From Hallella seregens ATCC 51272 (GTDB taxonomy: Bacteria; Bacteroidota; Bacteroidia; Bacteroidales; Bacteroidaceae): a stretch of 64,000 nucleotides of DNA. The notes below the pieces were generated by a model. That model did not search any database and was not told the origin of the DNA. It saw nothing but the letters and a program-made list of their open reading frames with translations. The position numbers and the translations under genes are program-made. Shown here one piece after another: positions 16,886 to 59,691 of this stretch. The DNA lies in the NCBI RefSeq assembly GCF_000518545.1, contig NZ_JADU01000012.1:1-64000 (forward strand). Reading direction: 5' to 3'. How positions within the stretch are numbered: position 1 is the first letter of the stretch; each line of letters begins with the position of its first letter.

Positions 16886-16973
16886 ACGAAAACGCCGTAA
16901 CCGCCGCGCCATTACGGTGTAATGACGCGGCGGTTACGGCGTAAAGGCGATGCGATGAGGCCGTGGACGTAGC
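16886..16973. repeat. Array A: four 22-bp palindromic repeat units between recO and yqeY
   Basis: Units start at 16886, 16908, 16930 and 16952, exactly 22 bp apart, sharing the frame xCG-xTT-ACG-xCG-TAA-xxG. Units 1 and 3 are inverted copies of each other, so the array folds into a long hairpin: 16892-16908 pairs perfectly with 16926-16942 (17 bp), then CATTAC pairs with GTAATG around a 3-nt loop. It lies between two convergent genes and may terminate both. The same repeat type fills the gaps at 42216-42505 and 53828-54165. Confidence 0.75.
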
Positions 16974-42215: not shown

Positions 42216-42505
42216 TATTTACGGACATAGATGGCTCTATTTACGGACACACAAGGCATGTGTCTCTGCCATTTGACAGCAAGTTTAGCATTTGCCACAC
42301 CCCCGCCTTGCGGCTGCCGGTGCGGCTTTGCGCTTTCATGGCGTTGGCTTTGCGCCGTAAACGCGATGCGTTTGCGGCGTTTTCATGCGGCGTTTACGCC
42401 GTTATCGCGCGGCCTTTGCGGTGCAATCGCACCGGCGTGGAGGCGTGACAGCAACACCATGGCCTTTTTGCCGCGCTGCCGCGCCGCTTTTGCAGCCTTT
42501 CCACT
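42216..42505. repeat. Array B: degenerate 22-bp tandem repeats between the EnvC-like gene and the M20 gene
   Basis: Five clear units begin at 42324, 42346, 42368, 42390 and 42412 (TTTGCG or TTTACG at the same offset in each). Two more, both TATTTACGGACA, begin at 42216 and 42238. TTTTGC recurs at 42466 and 42488. Every spacing within these groups is 22 bp, with small phase slips between groups. The best unit reads GCGTTTACGCCGTTATCGC plus 3 nt. The repeat fills almost the whole 424-bp convergent gap, in which I see no gene. Confidence 0.75.
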
Positions 42506-53677: not shown

Positions 53678-53750
53678 GGTGCCATAGCTCAGTTGGTAGA
53701 GCAAAGGACTGAAAATCCTTGTGTCCCCGGTTCGATTCCTGGTGGTACCA
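53678..53750 (+). tRNA. tRNA-Phe (anticodon GAA)
   Basis: The gene begins GGTGCCATAGCTCAG and ends TGGTACC plus discriminator A; no CCA is encoded. The anticodon arm AAGGA-CTGAAAA-TCCTT carries GAA. The T stem CCCGG/CCTGG has a C-U mismatch at 51-63, which is unusual. Confidence 0.93.
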
Positions 53751-53827
53751 CTTCCTCCTTTCATTCGGTCCGGTTACTGCATTCGTGCGGTGCCGGACTT
53801 TTTCGTTGTCGTCGCCCGTCCGCGCGC

Positions 53828-54165
53828 GCACCGCTATCCCTCCGTATATGCACCGCCACCCTTTCGTGTCTGCACCGCTGGCGGATGGGGCAGGGGCCGC
53901 CACGCCGTGGCATAGAGGTCGTCGCACCGTGGGGCACGGGCGGCGACGGGCCCTTGGCCCTGCCGCCATCGCGTGCCCGCCCGTCTTTTATGCCGCAAAC
54001 GCCCGGCGATTACGCTGTAAACGCAGTGCGTCTACGCCGCAATCGCCAGGCGTTTTCACCGTTATTGTTTTTCGTTCGGGCCGTCGAGGCACAGTCCCGG
54101 CCGTGTAGCGGCGCAATCCCAGCCATGTGGCGGGGCAGCCATGGCCGTATGGCGGCATGGCCCCG
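53828..54165. repeat. Array C: degenerate 22-bp tandem repeats between tRNA-Phe and murF
   Basis: Groups of units at exact 22-bp spacing: GCACCGC at 53828, 53850 and 53872; CCGTGG at 53905 and 53927; four consensus-like units at 53984, 54006, 54028 and 54050; and GCCrTrTrGCGG at 54100, 54122 and 54144. The unit at 54006 (GCGATTACGCTGTAAACGC plus AGT) and that at 54028 form an imperfect 19-bp stem with each other. The remaining sequence of this 434-bp gap contains no gene I can support. Confidence 0.72.
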
Positions 54166-54184
54166 GCCGCCGCACGCTCCGCCC

Positions 54185-55549
54185 TTAGAGCAGGGCGGGC
54201 AGCTCGAACAGGCGGATGCCGTTGGACCCCTTGACGAGGATGCAGTGGCCTTCGGGGCGGTTGGCGGCTATGGCGGCCTTGACCTCGTCGATGTTTCTGA
54301 ACTTGCGGAAGCTGCAACGGGTCTTGGCAAACTCCTCGCCCACGAGCCACACGCAGTCGAAGCGGGCCGTGGTGAGCATGTCGGCCACGCGCTGGTGCTC
54401 CTCGTTGCTCACGTCGCCCAGCTCGCGCATGTCGCCCAGAATGGCCATCTTGGGCATGGAAACCTCGGTACGCTCAAAGTTGTCAATGGCGGCTGCCATG
54501 CTTGTGGGGTTGGCGTTGTAGGCGTCCATGATGAGCCAGTTGTGGGCCGTCTGCTCCAGTTGCGAGCGGTTGTTGCTGGGCACATAGTGCTCCAGGGCGT
54601 GTCCTATCTGCCCGGGCGTCACGCCGAAGTGGAGGCCTATGGCGACGGCGGCCAGCACGTTGTCGAGGTTGTAGGCGCCGATGAGCTGCGTCCGGACGGC
54701 ATGCCTCGGTGTCTGCATGCCGGGCTGCGGGCCGGTAGGGTCGTCGGTGGCGGCATCGCCGTCGGCCAGGGCGTCGTCCTGCCACCACTCGAGCCCCAGG
54801 AACGGAGTGCAGCCCGTGACGCGGCCCTGCACACGGGCCTGGTTGTCCTGACCGTAGCTCAGCACGCGGTCGAGGCCGCGCTGGCGGGCCATCTCCACCA
54901 GATGGTCGTTGCCGGTGTTGAGAAAGGCGAGGCAACCGTGGGCCTTGAGATAGTCGTAGAGCTCGCCCTTGGTCTGCTTCACGCCCTCGAACGAGCCGAA
55001 TCCCTGCAGGTGGGCACGGCCCACATTGGTGATGAGGCCGCAGGTGGGCTCCACATAGTCCACGAGTTTACGGATGTCGCCGGGGTGCGAGGCCCCCATT
55101 TCCACCACCGCAATCTCGTGTTCGGGGGCGAGGCGCAGCAGTGTTTTGGGCACGCCCACGTCGTTGTTGAAGTTGCCCTCGGTGTGCATCACGCGGTATT
55201 TCTCGGCCAGCACGGCCGAGACGAGCTCCTTGGTCGTGGTCTTGCCGTTGGTGCCGGTGATGCCGATGACGGGGATGCGGAACTGGCGGCGGTGCTCGCG
55301 GGCCAGCTCTTTGAAGGCGGTGAGGCAGTCGTCCACGAGGATGATGCGCGGGTCGGCGGGGTCGGCACAGTCCGCCTCGTCGACGATGGCGTGGCTGCAA
55401 CCCTGCTCGAGGGCGGCGCGGGCAAACTTGTTGCCATTGAACGAGGCCCCTTTCAGGGCGATGAAGATGCTTCCGGCCGGACAGTTGCGGCTGTCGGTGG
55501 TTACCTGCGGGTGTTGTAGGTAGAGCTGGTATAGTGCTTTGCTGTTCAT
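54185..55549 (-). CDS. murF: UDP-MurNAc-tripeptide--D-Ala-D-Ala ligase
   Basis: MurF adds D-Ala-D-Ala to complete the UDP-MurNAc pentapeptide. The 454-aa protein has the P-loop [25 protein letters not shown], and DAYNANPTSM of the C-terminal domain. In many bacteria murF lies in dcw between murE and mraY; here it stands alone 25 kb away with its own consensus promoter. An insertion around residues 245-275 (rich in Asp, Gly, Thr) precedes the AYNLDN motif. Confidence 0.95.
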   Translation of the reverse strand: MNSKALYQLYLQHPQVTTDSRNCPAGSIFIALKGASFNGNKFARAALEQGCSHAIVDEADCADPADPRIILVDDCLTAFKELAREHRRQFRIPVIGITGTNGKTTTKELVSAVLAEKYRVMHTEGNFNNDVGVPKTLLRLAPEHEIAVVEMGASHPGDIRKLVDYVEPTCGLITNVGRAHLQGFGSFEGVKQTKGELYDYLKAHGCLAFLNTGNDHLVEMARQRGLDRVLSYGQDNQARVQGRVTGCTPFLGLEWWQDDALADGDAATDDPTGPQPGMQTPRHAVRTQLIGAYNLDNVLAAVAIGLHFGVTPGQIGHALEHYVPSNNRSQLEQTAHNWLIMDAYNANPTSMAAAIDNFERTEVSMPKMAILGDMRELGDVSNEEHQRVADMLTTARFDCVWLVGEEFAKTRCSFRKFRNIDEVKAAIAANRPEGHCILVKGSNGIRLFELPALL

Positions 55550-59509: not shown

Positions 59510-59583
59510 TGGCGTGAAGGAGTGACGGAGTTGAGACAACAGGTTCTTGGGGATGGTTTAACGTGTGGAGTTAGAGGAGTGAT

Positions 59584-59658
59584 GGAGTTAAGGAGTTAAG
59601 ACAAATGGTTCTTGGGGCTCATTCAACCGCAGACCCGCTGTCATAACTCCTTAACTCC
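59584..59658 (+). repeat. Intergenic inverted repeat of the GGAGTTAA type between folP and cdaA
   Basis: GGAGTTAAGGAGTTA (59584-59598) is perfectly complementary to TAACTCCTTAACTCC (59644-59658), with a 45-nt loop. Further GGAGT and TAACCCCTTAACTCCTCC motifs flank both arms (59520-59680). The arms are themselves tandem 8-nt repeats. The gap before prfB (47556-47681) has a similar element. Confidence 0.7.
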
Positions 59659-59691
59659 ATAACCCCTTAACTCCTCCAAACAAAGGATATT

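Follow-up and report, generated by a model that had tools for sequence, protein, structure and literature searches.

The gap between the tRNA-Phe gene and murF in Hallella seregens ATCC 51272 contains a sequence that repeats with a period of 22 bp, which raises the question of what kind of element this is and of what holds its period. The locus was analysed within a stretch of 64,000 nucleotides (positions 1 to 64,000 of contig NZ_JADU01000012.1), hereafter called the window, and the repeats of the gap are referred to as array C (Table 1). The gene on the right side of the gap was assigned as murF by a TIGR01143 score of 357 bits against a cut-off of 288.6. With Rfam models at their gathering thresholds, the window yields three tRNAs only, and the gap is without a match.

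Table 1. Array C, its neighbours and the other family arrays located in the window
Feature	Position	Strand	Remarks
Family array	16886-16970	+	4 units; between convergent genes; 15 bp past the recO stop codon
Family array	42346-42430	-	4 units; between convergent genes
tRNA-Phe(GAA)	53678-53751	+	left neighbour of the gap
Outer group C1	53813-53882		period 22; unit not demonstrably family-related
Four degraded rows	53896-53983		in phase with core array C
Core array C	53984-54068	open	four units of the dispersed 22-bp family
Outer group C3	54081-54169		period 22; unit not demonstrably family-related
murF	54185-55549	-	right neighbour; 3' end toward array C; TIGR01143

The periodicity of the gap, as claimed in the original prediction, is real and forms part of a phenomenon larger than first stated. 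The lag-22 self-match of the gap has a z of 9.5, a value that none of 1000 dinucleotide shuffles attains, be it at lag 22 or elsewhere between lags 2 and 60, and the outer groups taken alone, C1 with z 4.9 and C3 with z 6.5, are likewise matched by 0 of 1000 shuffles each. Tandem Repeats Finder (TRF) reports period 22 at 53828-53879, 53992-54053, and 54088-54137. A scan of the whole window at eight lags (11, 20-24, 33, and 44), scoring 44-base stretches with at least 29 matches, places four clusters at lag 22 (42338-42443, 53813-53882, 53972-54062, and 54081-54169), one position at lag 21 and five positions at lag 44. As a separate observation, a short 8-bp tandem repeat at 59567-59600 of the window, GGAGTTAA, faces another at 59644-59675, TAACTCCT.

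Chance periodicity in GC-rich DNA might be invoked for a gap with a GC content of 67%, and random sequence of equal composition had been named at the outset as the test of the repeat; the shuffled gap, however, never reaches the lag-22 signal. In an unselected sample of this genome (463 kb unmasked, made up of the window and 20 stretches of 20 kb each), 24 lag-22 self-match clusters are present, and no other lag between 10 and 40 has more than 4; of the multiples, lag 44 has 20 clusters and lag 66 has 9. In turn, 240 kb from other classes of Bacteroidota contain 0 lag-22 clusters. Chance as the origin of the period is thus refuted.

The core of array C is built from units that each comprise a 19-bp imperfect palindrome, approximately GCGATTACGCCGYAAACGC, and 3 variable bp, and it matches a sequence-only model of the dispersed family at E 2.0e-15; the automatic strand call is minus, but the units are mixed, and the strand is therefore left open. 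The four rows to the left of the core follow its phase (phase 18 is the best among the 22 phases by mean matrix score), with scores far under the threshold. Membership in the family of arrays A and B, originally proposed for all of array C, is thus retained for 53984-54068 with the degraded rows from 53896 and is withdrawn for the outer groups. For the latter, drift in sequence with a kept period had been suggested: the period is confirmed, and descent from the family is not, as the circular identity of C1 and C3 to the family is 12/22 in each case, with shuffled p of 0.12 and 0.38. This likeness does not go beyond chance, and C1 and C3 as decayed members of the family are unsupported. A count of at least twelve units is reached only when the degraded rows are included.

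The family represented by the core is widely dispersed. With 76 bases of the gap as a query, BLAST finds 48 matches in this genome (E ≤ 10), and phased units are present in 20 of the 20 places fetched around such matches. The model, built on 21 arrays (20 from this genome and one from H. multisaccharivorax), finds 276 matches at E ≤ 1 in this genome, counting both strands and, separately, overlapping windows. The unselected 463 kb contain 17 arrays with at least three units, corresponding by scaling to ~120 per genome, and the copy number per array is mostly 3-8 units. Family matches occur in 16 of the 24 lag-22 clusters and in none of the other 8, and this genome holds several unrelated 22-bp repeats besides the family. 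By a row-consensus test, 4 of the 24 clusters are palindromic at p ≤ 0.05, as are 9 of 30 lag-22 clusters in other genomes (1.5 expected). A fresh 22-bp array of GGCTCTGCGTGAGCCACACCAT, with 4.7 copies, 92% match and no dyad symmetry, is found at L068:18856-18958, and a repeat similar in look lies at L068:17819-17871. A second 22/44-bp repeat (around TTTAGACATAACAACAT / ATGTTGTTATGTCTAAAACCAC), with partly inverted copies and grouped by eye, is located at L074:10850-11277, L078:61-216, L079:10191-10274, and L064 at ~1730-1860.

The spacing of the family units is nearly invariant. The unselected sample gives 78 unit matches, against 6 in the reversed sequence, and of 53 neighbouring spacings of at most 140 bp, 52 are 22 bp and the remaining one is 44. 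When the loci picked by BLAST are added, the spacing is 22 bp in 108 of 109 cases here and in 146 of 147 in H. multisaccharivorax; in the fetched loci of two further genomes, G064 and G062, it is 22 bp in 96/99 and 73/74 (figures for G062 are given throughout without locus L199, a repeat of the L043 array). Substitutions, in turn, are frequent: 700 over 153 cores in this genome (4.58 per 19-bp core) and 525 over 184 cores in H. multisaccharivorax (2.85 per core). Beyond the ends of 37 arrays here, the in-phase offset is the best of 21 at 51 of 74 positions one unit out (3.5 expected) and at 15, 10, 8, and 9 of 74 two to five units out; the corresponding values for H. multisaccharivorax are 23, 7, 5, 5, and 2 of 69 (3.3 expected). 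The phase is thus still recognisable in degraded units as far as five units out in this genome, and one to two units out in H. multisaccharivorax. This in-phase decay may be read as a constraint on phase or as a general rarity of indels, and since indels may simply be rare, the case for selection on the pitch is weakened.

Two origins had been offered for array C, erosion of an old array from its edges and independent local amplification of one unit length. The in-register fading at the array ends, which is family-wide, agrees with the former, and the latter suits C1 and C3, which are not demonstrably akin to the middle group. Neither reading accounts for the main facts, which are the dispersal of the unit over many intergenic sites, the sequence turnover at a kept period among relatives described below, and the likeness of units, which is slightly, though significantly, higher within one array than between arrays (13.88/22 and 13.08/22, with a permutation standard deviation of 0.118), so that most arrays are unlike fresh local duplications. 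Transposition of whole arrays as blocks was also rejected: the in-register identity is 0.672, against 0.652 for shuffled units (0.809 against 0.792 in H. multisaccharivorax), and the flanks are unrelated, no conservation between loci being detected over 40 bp of the flanks of the dispersed family (family 1; mean pair identity 0.29-0.34).

With the arrays oriented, the unit consensus is GCGATTACGCCGYAAACGC here and GCGATTACGGCGTAAAGGC followed by AAT or a similar triplet in H. multisaccharivorax. Each unit consists of two inverted half-sites of ~9 bp, GCGATTACG and CGYAAACGC, repeating exactly every 22 bp, which is nearly two helical turns of DNA. The arms are related by a dyad yet differ systematically, and positive covariation was found neither between them nor across the spacer; one covariation column from G064 (positions 7-13 and 9-11) mixes the strands of an asymmetric centre and was disregarded. 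Such units could be RNA hairpins or bidirectional terminators at 3' ends, so that the arrays would act after transcription, a reading which we regard as very improbable. Compared with dinucleotide shuffles, the arrays fold well, at a mean z of -2.75 in this genome and -6.44 in H. multisaccharivorax; compared with a reordering of their own units, they are slightly ahead (-0.34 and -0.53), and they lie near stop codons in these two species. Against units re-assorted among arrays, however, the mean z is -0.23 here, that is, no better, and +1.43, that is, worse, in H. multisaccharivorax, where the control is biased by mixing array orientations; in this genome the strong z-scores against shuffles thus follow from the unit itself. 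In addition, T-runs past the array edges are not enriched (2/74 here and 1/70 in H. multisaccharivorax, with 0.05 at random), and a hairpin does not need an exact DNA pitch. Maintained hairpins are therefore unlikely, and half-sites acting at the level of DNA fit better.

The position of the arrays relative to genes was described with gene calls, and thus stop codons and convergent gaps, from a home-made codon-usage script. None of the distinct arrays lies mainly inside a called gene (0/37 here, 0/35 in H. multisaccharivorax, 0/22 in G064, and 0/21 in G062). Within 60 bp of a stop codon are 8 of the 17 unselected arrays here (0.14 at random) and 18 of 31 in H. multisaccharivorax (0.13 at random), and convergent gaps hold 7 of 17 (0.12 at random) and 11 of 31 (0.16 at random), respectively. 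This 3' bias is not seen in G064 (2/20 within 60 bp of a stop) and G062 (4/17), counts that lack a random control, nor in a mixed lag-22 set of other species (2/26, 0.12 at random) that takes in G024 stretches chosen for their arrays; the bias thus holds in two species and is not general. Conserved positions of individual arrays were considered and rejected, as they are mostly not shared with H. multisaccharivorax. Nine array-flanking genes have a homologue in its stretches, which were chosen for arrays and make this comparison a weak one; an array on the same 3' side and at a similar distance is found for murF only, 116 bp away here and 99 bp in H. multisaccharivorax (L041:7432-7582), where the next gene differs. 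For two other genes of the nine, an array accompanies the homologue on another side or at another distance.

Outside this genome, few genomes carry the letters of the family. H. multisaccharivorax has 217 family matches, the genome that locus L044 belongs to has 22, and three others have 0, 1, and 2; at E ≤ 0.01 with stricter filters, matches are limited to 5 of 60 genomes, the host included. The period itself extends much further. Across samples of 65 Prevotella-like genomes, 883 kb in total, no lag from 10 to 66 has as many clusters as lag 22, with 29 (7 of them in G016), followed by lags 44 (22 clusters), 66 (16), 14 (14), and 21 (12). These clusters come from 19 of the 65 genomes, which are represented by small samples (13 at less than 6 kb) and comprise genomes of the same genus together with presumed relatives, namely records titled Prevotella, Segatella, or Hallella and a few others; some genomes may be included twice. 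Two records named Segatella baroniae, L025 and L026, have a locus GC of 0.37 and 0.59, respectively, and are hardly one species. Other families of the order have 1 lag-22 cluster in 303 kb (3 at lag 23), and other orders of Bacteroidota 1 in 160 kb.

Altogether 53 lag-22 clusters, including those of the host, fall into 35 sequence groups, and several relatives have dispersed families of their own. That of G064 has 55 matches there and 1, 0, and 0 in three other genomes; a family common to G062 and G126 has 68 and 55 matches in them and 0 in G061 and G064; and that of G024 occupies 12 places, with 0 matches in G016 and G010 and one in the host at E 0.59. The relatives' arrays differ in letters at one spacing, which suggests that the spacing is what was kept. 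Adjacent units share one orientation in 96 of 96 cases in G064, the arrays of which are near uniform (59 of 120 units identical), and are mixed in G062 (39 of 73 alike), where the arrays are a mosaic of few unit types (32, 31, and 10 of the 97 centres). The G064 unit, GCGATACCATAGCTATCGC, has its outer arms in common with the window family and its centre, CATAGC, in common with the G062 unit, CTAAAAGCATAGCTTTTAG, which looks, by letters, as if modules had been exchanged. A comparable appearance was noted in G027, where adjacent 19-bp units at L233:255-345 have differing arms (AGTACGAA, AGTTTTAA, AGTTCGAA), some self-complementary and one a hybrid, as if half-sites were exchangeable modules.

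With regard to block transposition, G024 is an exception, the five loci fetched sharing the order of units over the whole array at an identity of 0.79-0.86 and a weaker identity of the flanks (means of 0.58 and 0.45 over 60 bp, ungapped). The element itself (L095:6421-6651, with copies at L164, L165, L166, and L168) is dispersed and consists of five palindromic units in a set order, GGGTAATCGAATTACCC, with 22-bp steps among the first four, and looks like a regulatory or RNA element.

Arrays that are dispersed, extragenic, palindromic, species-specific, and mosaics of few unit types could also be unusual REPs spread by a Y1 (RAYT-like) transposase since lost from this genome, which we consider improbable. 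According to PMC6006769, a Y1 subclass of Bacteroidetes has atypical secondary structures on its flanks, copies of which occur at other places in the genome. Matches to PF01797 (Y1) are present in four of the six genomes searched (three in G016, two each in G010 and G063, and a weak one in H. multisaccharivorax) and absent from this genome and from G024, both of which carry dispersed arrays, so that spread driven by RAYT is not a requirement in either. Eight Y1 loci of ~3.3 kb each were fetched, and two of the three from G016 contain lag-22 clusters, confined to one side of the gene. The three G016 loci together have three such clusters where 0.49 would be expected, and two of these resemble the 22-bp repeats of G016 at 14-17/22. 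These arrays, at L137:929-1151 and L138:821-917 (e.g., GTAACTTGACGCAAGTTAC), lie some hundred bases from the Y1 genes, and the Y1 of G016 is a possible mobiliser of arrays in that species. The other six loci, five from G010, G063, and H. multisaccharivorax and the third from G016, have no lag-22 cluster, and none of the eight contains a family-1 unit. Finally, PMC3733652 distinguishes two super-families of REPs, in which one palindrome end bears a GTAG or a CGTC tag. By eye, neither tag is present in the consensus matrices of three families of the arrays described here.

Among known systems, the arrays resemble REP/BIME elements in their many dispersed intergenic copies and high number, in being imperfect palindromes that form short, species-specific clusters as mosaics of few unit types, and, in two species, in their location. 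REPs show a bias to 3' ends, and the stem-loop structure of REP/BIME elements is maintained. The arrays differ from these in a tandem pitch that is fixed at 22 bp and leaves just 3 bp from one 19-bp core to the next, in giving no sign that a stem-loop is maintained, and in the lack of a detected Y1 transposase in this genome, one being present in some relatives. Iteron-type arrays, which bind replication or partition proteins, are likewise tandem sites at about two helical turns; they lie next to the gene for the binding protein, at a single locus or a few, unlike the many chromosomal sites occupied here. CRISPR arrays have near-identical repeats and unrelated spacers of even length, whereas the present units are diverged and contiguous.

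The closest counterpart within Bacteroidales is BrickBuilt, a minisatellite/MITE of Porphyromonas gingivalis, which PMC4596501 describes as a 23-nt intergenic tandem repeat without spacers at multiple loci (19 loci with 1 to 22.8 copies), with a leader and a tail bearing IS5-like terminal inverted repeats. The same paper mentions 22-, 23-, and 41-nt tandem repeats already described in strain W83, so that intergenic repeats of 22-23 bp are not as such new to the order. The arrays described here share with BrickBuilt the order, the intergenic tandem arrangement and nearly the unit length, and differ in having no conserved flanks (family 1), more loci, an exact 22 bp, and mostly 3-7 copies. Neither 22-bp arrays in Prevotella nor a pitch kept across a group with turnover of sequence is described in the accessible text of the open-licence literature searched (PMC4596501, PMC3733652, PMC6006769, PMC3236051, PMC5771137, and PMC2817692 included).

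This comparison leads to the chief rival of the reading preferred below, namely that the arrays are selfish or neutral minisatellites, similar to BrickBuilt, in which a copying process (slippage, template switching, cross-mobilisation) would set the unit length and the arrays would decay without a function. We consider this a real, if lesser, possibility. It would accommodate the unrelated 22-bp repeats of this genome, some fresh and partly non-palindromic, with C1 and C3 among them, the near uniformity of the G064 arrays, and the outward fading in phase. Such a process, however, would need to fix the unit length at 22 over 35 sequence groups, and it sits less easily with the near absence of indels among strongly diverged units, with the narrow range of copy numbers, and with family-1 arrays that have no counterpart of the BrickBuilt leader and tail.

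We prefer to read array C as a REP/BIME-like array, the pitch of which would be set by a phased, dimeric DNA-binding protein, and put the probability of this reading at roughly 40%. Cooperating dimers are proposed on the grounds of the exact pitch, the inverted half-sites, the lack of a maintained hairpin, and the gene-free positions. Dispersal, exact pitch, imperfect dyad, intergenic position, a 3' bias in two species, folding without a sign that hairpins are maintained, and different families in different species are directly supported properties of the arrays. What we infer from them is the protein, its cooperativity, its function, and the manner in which the arrays spread. Thus, a dimer would occupy one unit and touch the dimer on the next, and an array of mostly 3-7 units would carry a short row of protein along a single face of the DNA. 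Placed outside genes, and with a 3' bias in two species, such a row could act as a boundary, a roadblock, or an anchor for supercoils or the nucleoid. The letters would drift and be swapped between arrays, and whole families would be replaced from species to species, with the pitch preserved by dimer-to-dimer contacts that require the 22-bp spacing. We can speculate that the recognition surface of the protein evolves and its dimer-dimer contacts do not, yielding species-specific letters at a fixed pitch. Several observations count against this reading: degraded units past the array ends keep the phase as well, 22-bp repeats without dyad symmetry also exist in this genome, the 3' bias is not seen in G064, G062, and the mixed set of species, array positions are mostly not shared with H. 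multisaccharivorax, unit order extends over whole arrays in G024, and Y1 genes lie near arrays in G016.

A broader proposition, which is rather unlikely as it stands, is that the 22-bp pitch is a conserved trait of Prevotella-like bacteria in which the letters were repeatedly replaced, one nucleoprotein scaffold with a fast-evolving or exchanged recognition surface marking sites free of genes, for instance where transcription units end, in a code particular to each species. A class of repeats defined by its pitch is easily missed by annotation that seeks shared sequence, and the genomes of this common group of host-associated bacteria carry such arrays at many sites. Were a protein to read them, they would point to an unrecognised nucleoid or boundary factor together with a natural series of species-specific recognition codes; if none does, they would imply a copying process that has its own ruler of 22 bp. 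In both cases, it becomes possible to test directly if extragenic repeats are functional or selfish.
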